Below the pieces are notes generated by a model. It was not told the DNA's origin. It worked only from the letters and a program-made list of their open reading frames with translations, and did no database searches. This document shows, one piece after another, positions 847-8,989 of a DNA stretch of 8,989 nucleotides. Position 1 is the stretch's first letter; the number at the start of each line of letters is the position of its first letter. The stretch is from Hyphomicrobiaceae bacterium (GTDB lineage Bacteria > Pseudomonadota > Alphaproteobacteria > Rhizobiales > Hyphomicrobiaceae). The stretch is taken from the NCBI GenBank assembly GCA_020442225.1, contig JAGRKR010000427.1, positions 1 to 8,989 of the forward strand, given 5' to 3'. The position numbers were made by a program, and so were the translations under genes.

Positions 847-1695
847 ATGCCGGTTCGCATCATCACGGCCGACGAGCGGCTGTCGGCAGCTCACAACAAG
901 ACCTCGATCGCCATCTTCGGACCACCGGGCGCCGGGAAGACGTCGCTCCTGAAGACGCTGCCGGCCGACCAGACCGTCTGCCTCGATCTTGAGGCCGGCA
1001 TGAAGTCGGTGCAGGATTGGCCAGGCGCCAGCATTCCCGTACGGAGCTTCCTCGACTTCCGTGACCTGGCGGTGCTGATCGGCGGACCCGACCCGGCCGC
1101 CGATCCCAATGCCTGGTACAGCGCGCAGCACCATCAGCACACGAGGAGCGTCTACGCCGGCAGCGGTGTGGAAGAGTTCCTCGCCAGCAAGTCCGTGGTG
1201 TTCGTCGACAGCATCACCGATCTCACGCGCCAGTCGATGGCCTATGCCCGGCAGCAGCCGGAAGCGTTCTCCGAGCGCACCGGGAAGCCGGATGTTCGTG
1301 GCGCCTACGGCCTGCTCGGCCGTGAGGTCATCCAGGCCCTCAAGCACCTCCAGCACGCGCCGGGCAAGACGGTGATCTTCGTCGGGGTCCTGGAGAAGGT
1401 CACCGACGAGTTCGGTGTCACGACCTGGCAGCCGCAGATGGAGGGCTCCAAGGTCGGCCGCGAGCTGCCGGGCATCGTTGATCAGGTGATGGCGCTGCAC
1501 CTGTTCAGCCGCGACACCGACGGCGGCTACGTCCTCGACGAGAAGGCGAGCGAACGCCGGCTCGTTTGCCGGGCCGGCAATCCGTTCGGCCTGCCGGCCA
1601 AGGATCGAAGCGGCCGCCTCGGCGAGACCGAGCCTCCCGACCTCGGCGCCCTGCTCGCCAAGATCAACACAACCGCGTTCGCAGCCGCACGATAG
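847..1695 (+). CDS. Phage RecA-core ATPase, Sak4-like (AAA_24 family)
   Basis: A 282-aa P-loop ATPase. Walker A is GPPGAGKTS at residues 25-33; Walker B is VVFVDS at 117-122 with Asp121. Other family features are CLDLEAG after the first helix, a helix leading to a TVIFVGVLEKV strand, QPQMEGSKVGRELPGIVDQVMAL, and a late basic AGNPFGLPAKDRSGRL segment. This order matches the phage AAA_24 ATPases that include Sak4-type single-strand annealing proteins, which have a minimal RecA core and are typically encoded beside an ssDNA-binding protein. The next gene here is SSB-like, which supports that reading. A longer frame opens at 697, but its first 50 residues are Arg/Pro-rich and run through the inverted repeat. 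ATG 847 has a GAGGA stretch 8-12 bases upstream and begins where homology-like sequence begins. The exact activity, annealing or loading, cannot be read from sequence. Confidence 0.85.
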   Translation: MPVRIITADERLSAAHNKTSIAIFGPPGAGKTSLLKTLPADQTVCLDLEAGMKSVQDWPGASIPVRSFLDFRDLAVLIGGPDPAADPNAWYSAQHHQHTRSVYAGSGVEEFLASKSVVFVDSITDLTRQSMAYARQQPEAFSERTGKPDVRGAYGLLGREVIQALKHLQHAPGKTVIFVGVLEKVTDEFGVTTWQPQMEGSKVGRELPGIVDQVMALHLFSRDTDGGYVLDEKASERRLVCRAGNPFGLPAKDRSGRLGETEPPDLGALLAKINTTAFAAAR

Positions 1696-1736: not shown

Positions 1737-2438
1737 ATGTACGACCTCAACGATGCCCAGCCACAGATGGCGCCAGTCGGCGACCTGATTCCCGACGGCA
1801 CCTTCGCCAAGGTGAAGATGACCATTCGCCCGGGCGGAACGAACGGCTCGACGCCGCTCGATGCTGGTCTGCTCAAGGCATCGCAGTCCAGCGACGCCAA
1901 GCTGCTCGATTGCGAGTTCACGGTGGTCGCCGGCCCCTATGCCAGACGGAAGTTCTGGCAGAACTTCACCGTCGCCGGCGGCAAGCTCGACGAGAAGGGG
2001 CAGTCGAAGGGCTGGAACATCTCGAAGGCGACGTTCCGCGCCATGGTCGACAGCGCCCTCGGCCTCGATCCGCGCGATGAGAGCGCCGCCGCCAAGGCCA
2101 AGCGCGTCTTCCAGGGGCTGAAGCAGCTCGACGGCATCGTTGTCGCTGCCCGGATCATGGTCGAGCCCGCGTCGGAGCCGCAATACAGGGACGCCAACAA
2201 GCTCGCGAATGTCGTCCTGCCGGGTGAGCCCCAGTACGACGCGATCATGCGCGGCGAGACCGTGCAGCCCGATCCGATCAACGCCAAGCCGCGCAAGGCG
2301 CAGAACGGCGCGACGCAGAACGCCCCCGCCTGGCAACCCAACGCGCAGCAGAATGGCAGCGTGCCGTGGGCCGACCAGGATCAGTCCAGGCCACCTCAAC
2401 CTGCTCCGGCGACCGGTCCCGCCTGGCTCAATACCTAA
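1737..2438 (+). CDS. SSB-like single-stranded DNA-binding protein (DUF669-like)
   Basis: A 233-aa protein, probably the ssDNA-binding partner of the preceding ATPase. Residues about 12-160 form one domain with alternating strands (DLIPDGTFAKVKMTI, AKLLDCEFTVVAGPYARRKFWQNFTVAG) and then NISKATFRAMVDSALGLDP. That matches the phage DUF669/SSB-like pattern of 'G.Y.a.v' followed by a 'f.V..G.y.gR..w.n.t' strand pair. From about residue 185 to the end the chain is Gln/Asn/Pro-rich with PAW and VPW repeats and looks disordered, as in SSB linkers. It ends in PAWLNT and lacks the acidic DDDIPF-type tip of bacterial SSB. The ribosome binding site is strong (AAGGAG, 1725-1730, six bases before ATG). The 41-base gap and the pairing with a Sak4-like gene support a shared recombination role. 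The family name is a recollection, not a search result. Confidence 0.7.
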   Translation: MYDLNDAQPQMAPVGDLIPDGTFAKVKMTIRPGGTNGSTPLDAGLLKASQSSDAKLLDCEFTVVAGPYARRKFWQNFTVAGGKLDEKGQSKGWNISKATFRAMVDSALGLDPRDESAAAKAKRVFQGLKQLDGIVVAARIMVEPASEPQYRDANKLANVVLPGEPQYDAIMRGETVQPDPINAKPRKAQNGATQNAPAWQPNAQQNGSVPWADQDQSRPPQPAPATGPAWLNT

Positions 2439-2449
2439 GGCGGGAGGTC

Positions 2450-2680
2450 GTGACCGATGACGAGTGGCTGGCGCACACGACGCGCGAAGCGGCGAAGGCG
2501 ATCGGTCGATGGCTCGAAGGAAGAGGTGGGCTGCACCAGCCAATCCGCTCTTTGACCATGCGCGATCTCGAAGCCATGGCCGCCAGGGCCAACGACCGCT
2601 TCGTGGTGTTGGCGGCGGAGCGGATCAGGGAACAACCGGAGGCGGCCACGGCCAATCACAGGTGGCTCATGGCTGGCTAG
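2450..2680 (+). CDS. Hypothetical protein, 76 aa
   Basis: A 76-aa, mostly helical protein of unknown function starting at GTG 2450. Visible segments are an N-terminal acidic turn (TDDEWLAHTTREAAKAIGRWLEGRGG), a short linker QPIRSLTMRDLEAMAARANDRFVVLAAERI, and the end HRWLMAG. Composition is protein-like, unlike the Arg-rich overlapping frame. I recall similar small ORFs between SSB-like and zinc-finger genes of alphaproteobacterial prophages but know no family name. The likely ribosome binding site is AAGG (2437-2440), nine bases before GTG; the nearer GGGAGG is only two bases away and so too close. The gene starts 11 bases after the SSB-like stop, and its last 19 bases overlap the proposed start of the next gene, which suggests translational coupling. 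Confidence 0.65.
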   Translation: MTDDEWLAHTTREAAKAIGRWLEGRGGLHQPIRSLTMRDLEAMAARANDRFVVLAAERIREQPEAATANHRWLMAG

Positions 2681-3048
2681 CCCCGTGTGCGCTCTGCGGC
2701 CGGCAGAGCCGGGGCTACCTCTACTGCCACCTGCTCCGTCGGGACCGTTTCCCCGACTACGCCTTCTGCTCGCCGACCTGCACCGACCTCGGAATCGCAC
2801 TCGCCAGGGAGAACAACGGCGTGATCGACAAGACTGCCCGCGAGACACAGGCCCTCAGGGAGGCTCGGCGCCCCTTCGCCGAGGCGCTCACCGCACTCGG
2901 TCTGATGGAGCCCTTCTACAATCGTACCGCCGCCGAGATCGATCAGCTGATCGAGGCGGCAGTCACCGGCTTCGTCGAGAGCATGCAGCGCCAGTCGGCG
3001 ACGCCCGAGCGCTCCGGCACGCCCTTCGACGACGACATTCCTTTTTGA
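2662..3048 (+). CDS. Zinc-finger-like protein with SSB-type DDDIPF tail (probable DUF6511)
   Basis: A 128-aa protein if translation starts at GTG 2662. The N-terminal part has CALC (Cys9, Cys12) and FCSPTC (Cys36, Cys40), a likely treble-clef-type zinc site, with Cys22-His23 between them. A helical region follows: ENNGVIDKTARETQALREARRPFAEALTALGLM, then AAEIDQLIEAAVTGFVESMQRQS. This order fits my memory of the DUF6511 family of alphaproteobacteria and their phages, whose function is unknown. The last eight residues are PFDDDIPF; the final six are identical to the tip of E. coli SSB, the docking site for many DNA repair and replication proteins. The start is uncertain: GGAGG at 2638-2642 is 19 bases away, and an in-frame ATG at 2509 would add a low-quality Arg/Gly-rich stretch. 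Frame and C-terminus are firm. Confidence 0.75.
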   Translation: MAHGWLAPCALCGRQSRGYLYCHLLRRDRFPDYAFCSPTCTDLGIALARENNGVIDKTARETQALREARRPFAEALTALGLMEPFYNRTAAEIDQLIEAAVTGFVESMQRQSATPERSGTPFDDDIPF

Positions 3049-3060
3049 GGGCGAACATCG

Positions 3061-3855
3061 GTGATCGACCTCAATCACAAGTCGGGCTGCCAGTACGAAC
3101 CGCCTCTCCGCCCGCCTGGCATCGCCGCCGCCATCGGCAGGGCAATCGACAGCGCGCTGCTAGCGCGCCATCACGCCCAGCCGCCACGACGCTATGTCAG
3201 CAGCTCGGGCCTTGGTCGGGAGTGTCTCCGCCAGATCCAGTACGACTATCTCGCCGCGCCGAAGGACGAGGGCCGGGACTTCGAACCGGCGACCCTCCGG
3301 ATCTTCGCGGCCGGTCATCGCGGTGAGGACGTGGTGGCGGCATGGCTGCGGGCCGCCGGGTTCGATCTCCGTACCCACCGCTCGGACGGACGACAGTTCG
3401 GCTTCTCGATGCTCGGCGGCCGCTTCCGTGGCCACATCGATGGCTGCGTGGTCAGCGGTCCGGCGCCGATGATCTTTCCGGCGCTCTGGGAGAACAAGGC
3501 GGTCGGCGCCGGTCCGTGGAAGGAGATCGTCAAGCGCGGCGTGGTGATCGCGAGGCCGGTCTACGCGGCGCAGATCGCACTCTACCAGGCCTACCTCGAT
3601 CTGCCCAACCCCGCTCTCTTCACCGCGCTCAATCGCGACACCCTTGAACTCCATGCGGAGCTGGTCCCGTTTGACGCGGCGCTCGCGCAGGCCATGAGCG
3701 ACCGGGCCGTGCAGGTGGTCCGCGCCAGCGACGCCGAGGAGCTTCTGCCGCGCGCCGCCGCCGACCGCAGCGCGGCTGTCTGTCGGGGCGGAATGAGCGG
3801 CGGCTCCTATCATGGCGCCTGCTCCTGGCAGGACCGGTGCTGGAGGGCGCGATGA
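3061..3855 (+). CDS. PD-(D/E)XK exonuclease, Cas4/AddB-like
   Basis: A 264-aa nuclease of the RecB/Cas4-like PD-(D/E)XK fold. Motifs in order: YVSSSGLGRECLRQIQYDYL (44-63, the S.S.L..C.R...Y entry motif with Cys55); HRGEDVVAAWLRAAGF with His86 and Glu89; FRGHIDG with Asp127; WENKAVG with Glu144 and Lys146; and YAAQIALYQAYL with Gln171. Asp127, Glu144 and Lys146 form the metal-dependent active site of this fold. The C-terminus has Cys241, His251, Cys254 and Cys260. With Cys55 this resembles the iron-sulfur latch of Cas4 and AddB, but with a His or a shifted Cys in one position. A likely role is end resection for the neighbouring annealing proteins. GTG 3061 has GAGG at 3047-3050. The gene lies 12 bases after the zinc-finger gene. 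It is not called Cas4 because no CRISPR genes are present. Confidence 0.85.
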   Translation: MIDLNHKSGCQYEPPLRPPGIAAAIGRAIDSALLARHHAQPPRRYVSSSGLGRECLRQIQYDYLAAPKDEGRDFEPATLRIFAAGHRGEDVVAAWLRAAGFDLRTHRSDGRQFGFSMLGGRFRGHIDGCVVSGPAPMIFPALWENKAVGAGPWKEIVKRGVVIARPVYAAQIALYQAYLDLPNPALFTALNRDTLELHAELVPFDAALAQAMSDRAVQVVRASDAEELLPRAAADRSAAVCRGGMSGGSYHGACSWQDRCWRAR

Positions 3856-3901: not shown

Positions 3902-5224
3902 ATGACCGACATCACGCTCACCGACCAGCAATGGGCCGGGGTCAAGCGCATCGTCCATTGGTTCAGGCACGAGACGCATGAGAAGCAGGTGGCGCGCATC
4001 TCCGGGTACGCAGGATGCGGCAAGAGCACCATCCTGAAGTTCGTGCTCGATGAGCTTGGCCTCGATGCTCACGTGAGCGATCGCGACGGCGGCAGCTGCG
4101 TACCTGGTGTGGTCACCGCGACCTTCACCGGCAAGGCGGCCCTGGTGCTAAAACGGAAGGGTACGCCGGCGCGCACCATTCACAGCCTGATCTACAGCGT
4201 CATCGAGGCCACCGAGGAAGAGATCGAGGCGGCGGGCAAGAAGATCGCCGAGGCGGAAGCCCATGCGCGGACACTGACCGGGTTCGATCGCACCGCCGCG
4301 GAGGCCGCCATCGAAGCCCAGCGCCAGGCTCTGTCGCAGATGAAGAAGCCGCGCTTCTCATTGAACCCGCAGAGCGACGCTGCCGACGCAAGGCTGATCG
4401 TCCTGGACGAGGTCTCCATGGTCGGCGAGGAAATGGCGCGCGACCTGATGAGCTTCGGCAAGCCCATCCTGGTGCTGGGTGACCCCGGGCAGCTGCCGCC
4501 GATCAAGGGGGAAGGCGCGTTCACCAACGATGCCCCTGACGTCATGCTCACCGAGATCCATCGGCAGGCCGAGACCAGCGCCATCATCCGCCTTGCCACC
4601 ATGGCCCGTCGCGGTGAGCCGATCGGCTTCGGCCAGTACGACACCTTCGTCTGGAAGATGAGGAAGCAGGACGTCACGCCCGAGCAGGCGCTCCGCGGCG
4701 GCCAGGTCATCTGCGGGCTCAACGCCACCCGGCTGCAGCTCAACAATGCCATGCGCCGGGCGGCGGGGTTCGTCGACGGCTGGCTGCCCACCGGGCCGGA
4801 CGAGAAGATCATTTGCCTCAAGAACCAGAACGACCTCGGCCTGATCAACGGCATGTTCGTCACCCTCGACAATGTGGTCGACGAGGGCAGCCTCTACTTC
4901 TCGGCTGCGGTGAGCGACGAGGACGGCAACCGGATCGGGCCGCCGGGTGCGGACGGCAAACCGGGCCGGCTCCGCATCTACAAGGGACACTTCGAGGATC
5001 ACGTCGCCTTCGATCGGCAGCGCCACGATCGGGACTGGAAGGGCAAGCGCAACCTCACCGAGGCAACGTTCGGCTGGGCCATCACCGGGCACAAGTCGCA
5101 AGGGTCGCAATGGGAGAATGTCATCGTCTGGGACGATGGCCTTGGACGGAGCGAATCCGATCGCCGCCGCTGGCTCTACACGGTCATCACCCGTGCCGAG
5201 CGTGGGCTGGTGATCCTGGCCTGA
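3902..5224 (+). CDS. SF1B DNA helicase, Dda/RecD-like (AAA_30)
   Basis: A 440-aa ATP-dependent DNA helicase. Motifs in order: Q-motif-like TDQQ (7-10); Walker A GYAGCGKS (35-42); Walker B LDEVSM with Asp169-Glu170; motif III LGDPGQLPP with Asp194; TEIHRQ shortly after; UvrD_C_2-type motif V GHKSQGSQWENVIVWDD from residue 396; and motif VI YTVITRAERGL from 426. This set and length are typical of phage Dda-like and RecD2-like 5'-3' helicases, which remodel replication forks or restart stalled ones; the polarity is family knowledge. Between Walker A and Walker B a Glu/Ala/Lys-rich helical stretch (about 100-150) may form a coiled-coil insert. ATG 3902 is set by the strong ribosome binding site. 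The gene sits 46 bases after the nuclease and 9 before the primase gene, so all three are probably co-transcribed. A combined resection role with the nuclease is plausible but unproven. Confidence 0.9.
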   Translation: MTDITLTDQQWAGVKRIVHWFRHETHEKQVARISGYAGCGKSTILKFVLDELGLDAHVSDRDGGSCVPGVVTATFTGKAALVLKRKGTPARTIHSLIYSVIEATEEEIEAAGKKIAEAEAHARTLTGFDRTAAEAAIEAQRQALSQMKKPRFSLNPQSDAADARLIVLDEVSMVGEEMARDLMSFGKPILVLGDPGQLPPIKGEGAFTNDAPDVMLTEIHRQAETSAIIRLATMARRGEPIGFGQYDTFVWKMRKQDVTPEQALRGGQVICGLNATRLQLNNAMRRAAGFVDGWLPTGPDEKIICLKNQNDLGLINGMFVTLDNVVDEGSLYFSAAVSDEDGNRIGPPGADGKPGRLRIYKGHFEDHVAFDRQRHDRDWKGKRNLTEATFGWAITGHKSQGSQWENVIVWDDGLGRSESDRRRWLYTVITRAERGLVILA

Positions 5225-5233
5225 GCCCCGGCC

Positions 5234-7768
5234 GTGATCGACCTGAACGATGTCTGGCAGCCACCGGTCCGTTTCGATCTCGCTGCCGTGCGCGACCGGT
5301 TGTCGGCGACGGCGGCCGACTGGCTGCCGGCGCTATTCCCGGAGGCACGGGCGTCTTCCGACCGGAAGACGCTTCGCTGCGCCGACCTCTCCGGCCGCCC
5401 ACCCCGCAACGAAGGTTCCTGCGTCATCCATCTGCAGGGGCCGCGCGCCGGCTGGGGCTATGACCACGCCACGGGCGAGTCCGCCGGACCCATCGACCTG
5501 ATCCATCATGCGATCGGTCTCTCGGGCGGCGCCCTGTTCGAGGAAGCGGCGCGGCTTGCGCGTCTCGACGCGCCGACAGCGACGCCACGAAGGTCGGGTC
5601 AGCCGAAGTCGGGCCACGCCCTCGAGGTGGCGCGTATACTCGATGGCTGCCAGCCCATCGCCGCTACCGTGGCAGAGGTTTATCTGCGGAGCCGCGGTCT
5701 GGCCGATCCAGGCTCGCCGGACCTCCTGTATCACCCCGACCTCACCGACTATGAGGCCAGGCGCGGCTGGTCCGGCATGGTCGCGGTCGTGCGCGATGGC
5801 GCCGGCGAACCGACCGGCGGCATTCATCGCACCTTCCTGCTCGACGATGGTTCGGCCAAGGCGCCGCCGGGCAAGAAGATGCTCGATGCGGTGGGCGGCG
5901 GCTCGGTGCGTCTCGCGCAGGTCGGCGACGATGGACATCTGGGCATCGCCGAGGGCATCGAGACGGCCCTGTCCGCACACACGATCTTCGGCGTGCCGAC
6001 ATGGGCGGCCCTGTCGGCCGATGGCCTCCGGCGCTGGCAGTGGCCCCAAGGCATCAGCCGCGTGACCATCTTCGCCGACGCCGGCGAAGCCGGGGCGCAG
6101 GCCGGGGCCGCCCTCGCCGAGCGCCTCAGCGTAGCCGGCATCGCCAACGCGATCGTCGCGCCGCTGCATGGCGACGATTTCAACGACGACCTCCGCCACG
6201 GTGTGACCGCAGCCGACTACAAGATCTCAGCCCCTGTTGCCGCAGCTGCGCCGCTCGCCACGGCCGCGGAATTCGAGCGGGCAGCCCGGGTGTTGACCAA
6301 TCCGCCTGATCTCACGGCCCTCGGCAGCCTGCTCGGCCAGCTCGTCCTGGCACGGCTGGAACCACTGCCCGAGCGCCAGGTCCTGGCGGCGATCAAGTCC
6401 GCCACCGGCATCGCCGTCTCCATCCTCGAGAAGCAGATCGCAGAGCTGCGCCGCCGGCTGAATGCCACCGGCGACATCCACCAGCGTCCCATTCGTCCGC
6501 TATGGGCAAGCCAGCTCCGCCTTGACCTGGCTGGGACGCCGGAACGCAACGAAGCCAACGTCATCACCGCGCTCTCAAATGACGAGGCCTTTGCCGGCGC
6601 TCTTGTGTTCGACGAGTTCCGCCAGGAGACCATGGTCAATCGGGCGCTGCCTTGGGACGAGGACGCCGCGAGGATCCCTCGACCATGGAGCGATGCCGAC
6701 GACGTGCGCTGTGCCGAGTGGCTCCAGCATCGCGAGATCAACGTCGCACCGATCGTCGTCAGTCGTAGCGCCATCGCGGTCGCCAGGGACATCCGCGTCC
6801 ATCCGGTGCGCGACTATCTGAACGGCCTCACCTGGGATGGCGTGCCCCGTCTGGCGAGCTGGGCGATCGCCTACCTCGGCGCGGACGACACGGCCCTAAA
6901 CCGCGCCTTCGGGTCGCGCTGGATGATCTCCGCCGTCGCGCGCATCATGCGCCCCGGCGCCAAGGTCGACCACATGCTGATCCTCGAAGGACCGCAGGGC
7001 GCGAAGAAGTCGACCGCGCTGAAGGTGCTGGCTGGTGACGAGTGGTTCACCGACGAACTCCCTGAGATCGGCTCGAAGGATGCTGCCCAGCAGATCCGCG
7101 GCATCTGGATCGTCGAGATCGCAGAACTCGATGCGATCGGCCGGGCCGAGGTCTCGCGCATCAAGGCGTTCCTGACCCGCACCATCGATCGATACCGGCC
7201 GCCCTATGGGCGCTACGTCATCGAAGTGCCCCGCGAGTGCGTCTTCGCCGGCAGCGTCAACCCGGACAGCTATCTCCGCGACGAGACCGGCAACCGCCGC
7301 TTCTGGCCGGTGCGGTGTGGCAGCATCGATCTCGACGCGCTTCGCCGCGACCGCGACCAGCTGTGGGCAGAAGCCGTCGTTCGGTTCCGTGACGGGGCAA
7401 TCTGGTGGCTCGATGACGCGGAGCTCATGGCCAACGCAACGGAGGAACAGGACGCCCGCTATCAGTCCGATGCCTGGGACGCCCTCATCGAACGCTGGCT
7501 CGTCTATGAGCGCCGCCGCATCAACCGTGGCTATGGCTATGACGATTGGGTCGATGAAGAAGTCGAACGGGGAAAGCCGATCACCGACCTCTCGGTCGGC
7601 GAGGTCCTCGATCAGGCGATCGGCATCGAGCCCGGTCGCTGGACGAAGAGCGATCAGATGCGCGTAGGAGCATACCTGAAGGCAAACGGATGGCAGCGCT
7701 ACCAGCGCCGGGTTCGAAATCTCCGCGAATGGCGCTATCGGCGAGCGGACGACAGCGTAGCCGTCTGA
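5234..7768 (+). CDS. Toprim primase fused to VirE-type SF3-like helicase
   Basis: An 844-aa fusion. Residues about 1-120 resemble a degenerate primase zinc-binding region (LRCADLSG, GWGYDHATGESAGPIDLIHHAIGL) without a full Cys set. A Toprim_3-like domain follows at about 232-325: GIAEGIETALSA with Glu240, IFADAGEAG with Asp282, and HGDDFNDDLR from 313. A middle linker to about 430 is helical. The C-terminal VirE (virulence-associated E) helicase has Walker A GPQGAKKST (586-594), Walker B WIVEIAELD with Glu628, Glu631 and Asp633, sensor GSVN (673-676), and GNRRFWPV with Arg688/Arg689. Such proteins prime and unwind DNA in phages and islands. The Toprim metal motif is DAG rather than DxD. GTG 5234 follows the helicase stop by nine bases and has no clear ribosome binding site, suggesting coupled translation. 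The most likely role is the element's replication initiator or replisome core. Confidence 0.88.
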   Translation: MIDLNDVWQPPVRFDLAAVRDRLSATAADWLPALFPEARASSDRKTLRCADLSGRPPRNEGSCVIHLQGPRAGWGYDHATGESAGPIDLIHHAIGLSGGALFEEAARLARLDAPTATPRRSGQPKSGHALEVARILDGCQPIAATVAEVYLRSRGLADPGSPDLLYHPDLTDYEARRGWSGMVAVVRDGAGEPTGGIHRTFLLDDGSAKAPPGKKMLDAVGGGSVRLAQVGDDGHLGIAEGIETALSAHTIFGVPTWAALSADGLRRWQWPQGISRVTIFADAGEAGAQAGAALAERLSVAGIANAIVAPLHGDDFNDDLRHGVTAADYKISAPVAAAAPLATAAEFERAARVLTNPPDLTALGSLLGQLVLARLEPLPERQVLAAIKSATGIAVSILEKQIAELRRRLNATGDIHQRPIRPLWASQLRLDLAGTPERNEANVITALSNDEAFAGALVFDEFRQETMVNRALPWDEDAARIPRPWSDADDVRCAEWLQHREINVAPIVVSRSAIAVARDIRVHPVRDYLNGLTWDGVPRLASWAIAYLGADDTALNRAFGSRWMISAVARIMRPGAKVDHMLILEGPQGAKKSTALKVLAGDEWFTDELPEIGSKDAAQQIRGIWIVEIAELDAIGRAEVSRIKAFLTRTIDRYRPPYGRYVIEVPRECVFAGSVNPDSYLRDETGNRRFWPVRCGSIDLDALRRDRDQLWAEAVVRFRDGAIWWLDDAELMANATEEQDARYQSDAWDALIERWLVYERRRINRGYGYDDWVDEEVERGKPITDLSVGEVLDQAIGIEPGRWTKSDQMRVGAYLKANGWQRYQRRVRNLREWRYRRADDSVAV

Positions 7769-7847: not shown

Positions 7848-8126
7848 TCACGTTTCCGCTGCCAGCCGGTCGGCCGCGCGGACAACGTCCGCGGGAGCCA
7901 TTTCGGCGTAGGCTGCAAATTCGAGAAGCCACGGCTCCCAACCGACGACCTGCTGCATGACACCGCTCAGGAAGCCTGGCTGCCGCGCGCCAAGCCGAAT
8001 TGTCTCGGGTTGAGTCCCGGTGAGAAGCAGGAAGCGTTCGAGCCTTTCCGGATCGGCGGCGATGAAGGCGAGCGCGGTGATCGCCACCATCTCCGGATCA
8101 GCCTGCTCCTGGGTCTGACGAATCAT
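7848..8126 (-). CDS. DUF3572-family protein on the opposite strand
   Basis: A 92-aa protein encoded against all its neighbours. The core ITALAFIAADPERLERFLLLTGTQPETIRLGARQPGFLSGVMQQVVGWEPWLLEFAAYAEMAPADVVRAADRL matches the DUF3572 pattern I know from alphaproteobacteria (AL.FiA.DPe.L.RFL.l.G..P...R..A..pgFl..vL......E..Ll.FA...g..P). It is all-helical, without signal peptide or membrane segment, and its function is unknown. The start at 8126 is chosen because the DUF core begins about 15 residues in; the nearest upstream purine-rich site is GGAG, 12 bases away. Its orientation inside a one-directional module suggests a separately transcribed cargo gene or a remnant of chromosomal sequence at an element edge. 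The resolvase gene to its right argues for the former. Confidence 0.75.
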   Translation of the reverse strand: MIRQTQEQADPEMVAITALAFIAADPERLERFLLLTGTQPETIRLGARQPGFLSGVMQQVVGWEPWLLEFAAYAEMAPADVVRAADRLAAET

Positions 8127-8410: not shown

Positions 8411-8598
8411 ACTGCTTAGCCGATTGAAATTAATAGGGTATTGGTGTCACCGCCCTGAGCGATGGGTAGTGACGGCGGAGGATCGGCGGGCTCAAGGAAA
8501 AAATGCTGCCTGTGCTCGTTTTCAGTTGCCCCGCCGTAATCGGTCTCTAGAATCAACATCGACCAAAGCCGAAGGCCCACTTCTCGTGAGCCTTCGTG

Positions 8599-8989
8599 AT
8601 GAATATCCCTTCCGCTGTCGTGCCCGGGGTGGCCAACGAGCCGCCGCCTGCCGTCACGACTCGCCCAGTCGAGACCTCGGGCGCTCCGGCCATCCTCGCC
8701 CTCGACCTTGGCACCACCACCGGCTGGGCGCTTCGCAATCTCCGCGGCCGCATCCTCAGTGGCACCGCCGAGTTCAAGCCGCACCGCTTCGAAGGCGGCG
8801 GCATGCGCTACCTCCGCTTCGAGCGCTGGCTCGACGAGACGCTCCGCCTCGCCGGTGACGTCCAGGCCGTCTACTTCGAGGAGGTGCGCCGACACGTCGG
8901 CGTTGACGCAGCCCATGCTTACGGGGGGTTCCTCGCCGGCCTCACCGCATGGTGCGAGGAACACGCGATCGCCTACCAGGGCGTCCCGG
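8599..8989 (+). CDS. RuvC-fold Holliday-junction resolvase, phage type (3' truncated by window)
   Basis: The open frame from ATG 8599 continues without a stop to the window edge: 130 codons plus one base. The first 30 residues are Pro/Thr/Val-rich and likely disordered. AILALDLGTTTGWAL follows (31-45), with Asp36 as the first catalytic acid of the RuvC/RNase H fold. AVYFEEVRRHVGVDAAHAYGGFLAGL (from 90) supplies the second acid, Glu94, and the usual 'g..aa..yG...g.l' helix. The last catalytic acids would lie beyond the edge. Phage RuvC-like enzymes cleave branched DNA during recombination or packaging, which fits the recombination genes to the left. An in-frame stop at 8587-8589 limits the start to GTG 8596 or ATG 8599; TGAG at 8587-8590 is a modest ribosome binding site. 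Codon composition matches the rest of the module. Confidence 0.82.
   Translation, partial: MNIPSAVVPGVANEPPPAVTTRPVETSGAPAILALDLGTTTGWALRNLRGRILSGTAEFKPHRFEGGGMRYLRFERWLDETLRLAGDVQAVYFEEVRRHVGVDAAHAYGGFLAGLTAWCEEHAIAYQGVP

Follow-up and report, generated by a model that had tools for sequence, protein, structure and literature searches.

The DUF6511 protein of a Hyphomicrobiaceae prophage ends in a putative docking tip of the SSB type, and this tip is not the product of chance. As judged by codon contrasts, it is under strong purifying selection in the subfamily to which the protein belongs. The nearby phrog_2300 protein, a putative phage SSB, carries no acidic tip, and the acidic tips of the two proteins show a complementary distribution. 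SSB tips serve as an address label, by which bacterial enzymes of repair and replication are sent to single-stranded DNA. The reading that we prefer, with a probability of about 0.45, is that DUF6511 is a phage adaptor, which would supply in trans the tip missing on the phage SSB, for Sak4 and/or host enzymes. The window, i.e. the whole 8,989 bp stretch of DNA that was analysed, contains the features listed in Table 1.

Table 1. Coordinates of features in the window and the evidence on which their assignment is based
Feature	Position	Strand	Evidence
Sak4-like single-strand annealing ATPase	847..1695	+	PF13479 4.5e-40; phrog_124 8.4e-35 (scan began one codon upstream, at 844)
phrog_2300 protein, putative phage SSB, non-acidic tip GPAWLNT	1737..2438	+	phrog_2300 8e-37
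76-aa ORF overlapping DUF6511 start	2450..2680	+	only phrog_31651, E 0.058
DUF6511 protein, 128 aa, GTG start	2662..3048	+	PF20121 85.3 bits; homologue starts
Zinc-type part C9-x2-C12 ... C36-x3-C40 (putative metal site)	2686..2781	+	cysteine conservation; AlphaFold2 strands
Helical domain (aa 54-113)	2821..3000	+	helices 58-79, 90-113; block pLDDT 84-97 to aa 110
Linker TPERSGTP (aa 114-121), probably disordered	3001..3024	+	block pLDDT 63, 59; codon differences
SSB-type C-terminal tip FDDDIPF	3025..3045	+	window sequence, homologue conservation, codon contrasts
Cas4-domain exonuclease	3061..3855	+	phrog_1990 3.2e-62
Dda/RecD2-like helicase	3902..5224	+	phrog_325 9.6e-95; PF13604, PF13538
Toprim primase with VapE-type helicase domain	5234..7768	+	PF05272 1.1e-82, PF13362 2.2e-25
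RuvC-like resolvase, running past the window	8596..8989	+	phrog_159 9.7e-10; 7.5e-29 for whole ORF (L379)

The DUF6511 protein and its C-terminal tip

The reading frame closed by the TGA at 3046-3048 encodes ...MQRQSATPERSGTPFDDDIPF, and the C-terminal peptide of the protein, tip included, is RSGTPFDDDIPF. The octapeptide PFDDDIPF (3022-3045), in which an earlier note on this DNA had recognized an SSB-type tip, was read in the window sequence directly before the stop. Its last seven residues are also those that close the peptide WMDFDDDIPF, cited for E. coli SSB in PMC10238739. As in SSB C-termini, the P-F pair follows acidic residues and stands directly at the stop. In the host's own genome the DNA pattern for tip plus stop (Asp as GAC only) was found once, at the window site.

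The PF20121 profile matched the protein far above its cut-off of 28 bits, aligning from position 1 to 69 of 69 with aa 54-128 and thus reaching the last residue. Close homologues have their start at the corresponding residue (MAHGWLAPC). AlphaFold2, using 99 sequences, predicted with confidence a zinc-type N-terminal part and helices at 38-50, 58-79 and 90-113 (mean pLDDT 84.6). Among these sequences C40 was invariant and C12 and C36 were present in at least 90 per cent, C9 being outside that list. The cysteine pattern of the zinc finger claimed previously is therefore present, and suggests metal binding. The tail was poorly placed in the monomer model (pLDDT 63 and 59 in the last two blocks, after aa 110) and varies freely in sequence, in keeping with the linker that the earlier note had assumed in front of the tip; the tip would sit on a variable and probably flexible stretch. 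The protein resembles bacterial SSBs (PF00436) in its terminal D-D-D-I-P-F following a linker, but differs from them in having a zinc-type/helical scaffold, and no match to the SSB/OB domain PF00436 was found in it at E values up to 0.1. A fold search with the model gave weak matches only, and a PDB sequence search with the DUF6511 profile returned nothing (best E 0.74).

When named genome contigs were scanned once, the gene's nearest relative came from a Bauldia sp. MAG, at 92% identity. DUF6511 occurs at three places in the host genome, each on a different contig. Several places were also seen in other single genomes, seven at most in G203 (C1, with L127 and L177), as would be expected of genomes containing several related prophages. 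No match to the window DUF6511 was found in named phage records, and a distant DUF6511 query hit three of them, all AcaML1. Our search of open-licence papers found no literature on DUF6511.

The homologue lists covered 120 of 333, 120 of 1653 and 120 of 2532 matches. Among 120 listed homologues, the end was PF in 117 and PY in two; the remaining one (P0117) was incomplete and left out of the tail counts. All 119 complete ones had an acidic residue among the six preceding the last two. When representatives were chosen by clustering the part before the tail, PF ends were found in 108 of 117 at 90% identity (P-[FYW] in 111), in 31 of 37 at 70% (P-[FYW] in 33) and in 7 of 10 at 50%. Column entropy at the 90% level was 0.41 bits at position -2 and 0.58 at -1, compared to 2.70-3.72 at -7 to -16.

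The same conclusion emerged at the codon level. Of the 53 distinct genes in the subfamily of the window protein, 52 kept Pro(-2), the exception (L042) being one residue longer, and all four codons were used for it (CCA 22, CCG 10, CCT 10 and CCC 10). The ratio of synonymous to nonsynonymous pair differences was 1441:205 at P-F, 1332:8764 in the linker (-7 to -15) and 3598:12485 in the preceding helix, these counts being contrasts between non-independent pairs of related genes rather than tests. An HMM devoid of the last 20 residues picked the same 53 genes, which shows that they were not selected by the tip. These values indicate strong purifying selection on P-F and a free linker in the window's subfamily. 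The earlier note had proposed to weigh the conservation of the tip among homologues against that of the linker, and would have abandoned a tip that was not conserved; since in the window's subfamily the tip is conserved over the linker, the proposal stands there.

The background was estimated from the other closed ORFs of at least 100 aa in the loci examined, 9,246 distinct ones in all. An acidic P-[FYW] tip occurred in 13 and the strict tip in five of them, namely the SSB of the host, two RadD-like helicases, a DUF6511-like protein and a Cas4-type exonuclease.

The tip turned out to be a feature of most of the DUF6511 family, not of all. Gene calls were stop-to-stop ORFs combined with purpose-built HMMs, and tip classes were regular expressions of our own definition. 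By these criteria 121 of 183 distinct DUF6511 tails, a set that includes false or truncated ORFs (e.g. L089, L302, L240, L232|10 and L307), had an acidic terminal P-[FYW] tip. Of the other 62, 22 carried LPW internally, 2-20 residues ahead of the terminus (types of AcaML1 and G396), 15 ended in P-[FYW] of the non-acidic kind, mostly as GVPF, eight were tipless RMQLD tails (G408 type) and four LPC tails; the remaining 13 were in part broken or miscalled frames. As a rule for the whole family the tip thus does not hold, because distant subfamilies have GVPF-type non-acidic ends, internal LPW, LPC or none of these. An internal EDDLPW instead of a terminal tip was observed in the DUF6511 proteins of L189 (7676-8197, AcaML1 gp14), L130 and L131.

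The prophage operon and the phrog_2300 protein

The window belongs to a prophage located on the host's contig C46. Upstream of it lies an integrase gene (phrog_95, 5e-108), whose product also matches DNA-invertase phrogs and is therefore probably of the serine type; the RuvC-like resolvase, the terminase large subunit (phrog_15, 1.4e-166) and the portal (phrog_21, 1.4e-45) are encoded downstream. On one strand follow a HTH gene, a 123-aa ORF, the genes of the Sak4-like AAA_24 ATPase and the phrog_2300 protein, the 76-aa ORF and DUF6511, and after it, on the same strand, those of the Cas4-domain exonuclease, the Dda/RecD2-like helicase, the Toprim/VapE primase-helicase and RuvC. With Sak4-like, exonuclease, helicase, primase and RuvC genes adjoining DUF6511, the phage recombination operon postulated in the earlier note was recovered. 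Also within the prophage, a DUF3572 gene (PF12096) on the opposite strand (7851-8126) separates the primase gene from that of RuvC.

The association between DUF6511 and phrog_2300 extends beyond this prophage. In 398 genomes of the phylum, DUF6511 was found in 33, phrog_2300 in 38 and both in 32. A phrog_2300 gene lay within 12 kb of 59 of the 71 DUF6511 places, in 58 of the 59 upstream on the same strand; as no more than five candidates were scored in each genome during the phrog_2300 search, the unpaired DUF6511 places may be artefacts. The gene order is also kept in Acidithiobacillus phage AcaML1, where gp12-gp15 correspond to Sak4-like, phrog_2300, DUF6511 and Cas4-type exonuclease proteins; the AcaML1 DUF6511 differs in having EDDLPW about 20 residues before its end, not terminally.

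The phrog_2300 gene directly follows that of Sak4 and is the second one upstream of DUF6511. Its product has an SSB-like layout, i.e. a conserved N-terminal part, a Pro/Ala/Gln linker and the end GPAWLNT; relatives encoded beside DUF6511 end in P-[AS]-W-[LA]-[NQ] or a similar sequence. The conserved non-acidic tip, GPAWLN or RPSWAQ, was observed in the window (2415-2435) and in the genes of L127, L123 and L189. A possible connection to known ssDNA-binding proteins is suggested by L181, which matches Pfam DUF669 (PF05037, 2.6e-27), phrog_2300 (3.1e-35) and a ssDNA-binding phrog (3.4e-44), and by the distant phrog_2300 member L127, which matches the ssDNA-binding phrog_378 at 1.8e-4. In view of these matches the window protein may be a remote DUF669 relative and is a putative SSB, which may bind ssDNA. 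Other results speak against this: the window protein had no Pfam match (PF05037 included), the Pfam matches of 18 aligned relatives were to four unrelated families, each in a single member, at E values up to 10, and hhalign of the family profile against one DUF669 sequence gave 6% probability. A PDB sequence search with the phrog_2300 profile found nothing (best E 0.78), and the model, built from an alignment of close relatives only, had a mean pLDDT of 40.6.

Distribution of tips between phrog_2300, DUF6511 and other proteins

From the loci, the phage collection and viral contigs 221 distinct phrog_2300 tails were pooled. The viral contigs were scanned with four further phrog_2300 queries and one from L183, the scan with query A4 covering 80 of 583 relatives, and in the tally the acidic tip was allowed one residue after P-[FYW]. 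Where DUF6511 was present within 8 kb, 169 of 170 phrog_2300 tails were W-type, one was of another kind and none was acidic. Where DUF6511 was absent from at least 4 kb of downstream sequence, 19 of 25 tails were acidic and six W-type. With flanks too short to tell, there were 20 W-type and six acidic tails. The 19 acidic tails were either WO-type, accompanied by Sak4 (eight), or Megaira-type, with no Sak4 match (11).

Tblastn of the phage collection with the phrog_2300 protein gave 12 records, four of which were examined. In AcaML1, with DUF6511 next door, the phrog_2300 protein ends KPAWAQ. The two Wolbachia phage WO records and one Megaira phage encode homologues of the window phrog_2300 protein (gwv_1126 and UXM65458) that end DWLPF and GDELPF, respectively; unlike in the window, DUF6511 was not found in these three records. 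The corresponding proteins, annotated as hypothetical, appear to be SSB-like members of phrog_2300 (L190, 6486-6977; L192, 6486-6986; L191, 6986-7564). A Sak4-like gene was noticed upstream of the phrog_2300 gene in the WO records.

In a tree of 65 representatives, made by a quick method, the tip type changed three times, in the WO clade, in the Megaira clade and in the lone row L183. The latter is a 5.3-kb contig on which the primase frame overlaps the phrog_2300 end, so that no DUF6511 fits between them. As there are only two independent pairs, a sign test cannot reach 0.05, and tip complementarity between phrog_2300 and DUF6511, observed in two or three lineages, is suggestive.

Complementarity is not strict. 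The six W-type rows without DUF6511 were L170, L177, L179, L281, L282 and L347. In L347 (5974-6573) the phrog_2300 protein ends IHQTWS and Sak4 is present; neither DUF6511 nor an acidic-tipped ORF of at least 45 aa was found. Eight DUF669-type loci (L169, L173, L174, L175, L178, L180, L181 and L182) had GPW- or APW-type tails. DUF6511 was not found in seven of these eight, some of which are on short contigs, and the sole acidic tip there was that of a 46-aa ORF in L175; only L178 has DUF6511, about 5 kb off. One acidic tip per operon was considered as a rule and is ruled out by the seven tip-poor DUF669-type loci and L347.

In some loci the tip was on other proteins. The Cas4-domain exonuclease of L179 (5384-6514, minus strand) ends SEEIPF; no DUF6511 was found in this locus and the phrog_2300 match is weak. 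RadD-like SF2 helicases of two prophage-type operons end IEEIPF (L136, 9747-11435, minus strand) and DDDIPF (L185, 5434-7128, minus strand), and both operons have a divergent DUF6511 (PF20121, 41.5 and 33.3 bits, respectively) ending APF. In L281 (4505-4861) and L282 (8174-8578), an ORF ending NDPNEPF occupies the DUF6511 slot in the gap between phrog_2300 and the exonuclease; its family matches were at chance level (E 0.07 or worse). The exonuclease and helicase cases are compatible with a module that needs the tip and is loose about its bearer, though tipless loci exist.

The SF2 helicases of the distant operons L127 and L185 are related to E. coli RadD, which, according to the part of the source available, binds the SSB C-terminus via Arg21, Arg49 and Arg145 (PMC10238739). 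In a comparison by eye, with chain numbering taken as residue numbering, the L185 helicase keeps Arg21 and has Glu at 49 and Lys at 145, and that of L127 keeps none of the three arginines. The window helicase is Dda/RecD2-like instead. A RadD-like helicase as the tip reader of the operon is not supported.

Possible roles of the tip

The closest precedent for the adaptor reading is phage HK620. According to the accessible text of PMC5928155, its SSB, a DUF669 protein, adjoins Sak4, deletion of the last six residues (NDYPPF) abolished Sak4 binding to SSB-coated ssDNA, and these residues were needed for most of the annealing stimulation. In a survey of Firmicutes phages, again as far as the available text goes, sak4 was mostly located upstream of ssb or DUF669 genes (PMC8093625). 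The HK620 module is similar to that of the window in that a Sak4-like gene is followed by a DUF669-related gene and a PF tip is encoded. The two differ in the bearer of the tip, which is the SSB itself in HK620 but DUF6511 in the window, where the SSB-like protein has GPAWLNT at its end. In the mechanism that we envisage, phrog_2300 would coat the phage ssDNA, DUF6511 would join phrog_2300 or the ssDNA through its zinc/helical part, and its tip would dock Sak4 and/or host SSB-binding enzymes and bring them onto the phage ssDNA. The phage SSB and DUF6511 would together be equivalent to the one-piece phage SSB of HK620 and, judging by its tail, of WO. For the 11 Megaira-type proteins, having no Sak4 match, the tip must serve something else.

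In a more specific and somewhat less probable form of this proposal, the SSB is split: the ssDNA-binding part (phrog_2300) and the docking tip would reside on two proteins, DUF6511 being a dedicated tip subunit, and in some lineages the tip would be carried by the SSB-like protein, the exonuclease or the RadD-like helicase. The motif of the tip is already known, as are Sak4-SSB pairs and recruitment that depends on the tip. We did not find in the open-licence literature a tip on a zinc-type protein beside a tipless phage SSB-like protein, phage WO paired with Sak4, or an SSB tip acting in trans or placed on a separate protein.

The chief alternative is that the tip imitates the host's SSB with no connection to phrog_2300, recruiting host RecO, RecQ, PriA, chi, ExoI and RecG to phage DNA or competing them off host SSB. 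Recruitment of SSB-binding host enzymes, or competition for them, had been suggested in the earlier note, which did not propose that the tip might replace one missing on the phage SSB. The host's one PF00436 match (L051, on another contig) ends ...AEELDDEIPF, so its tail, LDDEIPF, nearly equals the DUF6511 tip. SSBs were searched in 30 of the 47 other DUF6511-bearing genomes known then, and the best match per genome ended [DN]D[DE][IV]PF in 29 of the 30, the thirtieth (L352) running off its contig. The DUF6511 tip thus matches what host pockets read, which makes host partners plausible, and RadD and RecG are host enzymes reported, in the available parts of the sources, to read such a tip (PMC10238739, PMC10164576). 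What this alternative leaves unexplained is the total absence of acidic phrog_2300 tails near DUF6511 (0 of 170) and the steady position of DUF6511 inside the Sak4 operon, and we regard it as rather unlikely.

It is still less likely that the PF end serves the structure or assembly of DUF6511 itself, e.g. as a fold-back or a subunit clasp, and that its likeness to SSB is due to convergence. The P-[FYW] ends lacking acidic residues (15 of 183 tails) would fit a hydrophobic end that alone matters, and an intermolecular clasp is compatible with a model computed for the monomer only. However, the end is fixed while the linker varies in length and sequence, the monomer model does not place the tail, and in 92 of the 117 representatives at 90% identity two or more of the five positions -8 to -4 hold an acidic residue. 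Acidic C-termini are common in general, but a chance tail with no docking role is very improbable in view of the strict background rate (5 in 9,246), the codon selection at P-F and the conservation across subfamilies.

If the adaptor reading is true, identifying the reader of the tip, phage annealase or host hub, becomes a short and direct biochemical question. It would also hint at how Sak4-type annealases working with an SSB that lacks an acidic tip are recruited, and a Pfam family of unknown function, present in 33 of the 398 sampled genomes of the phylum, would gain a testable role.
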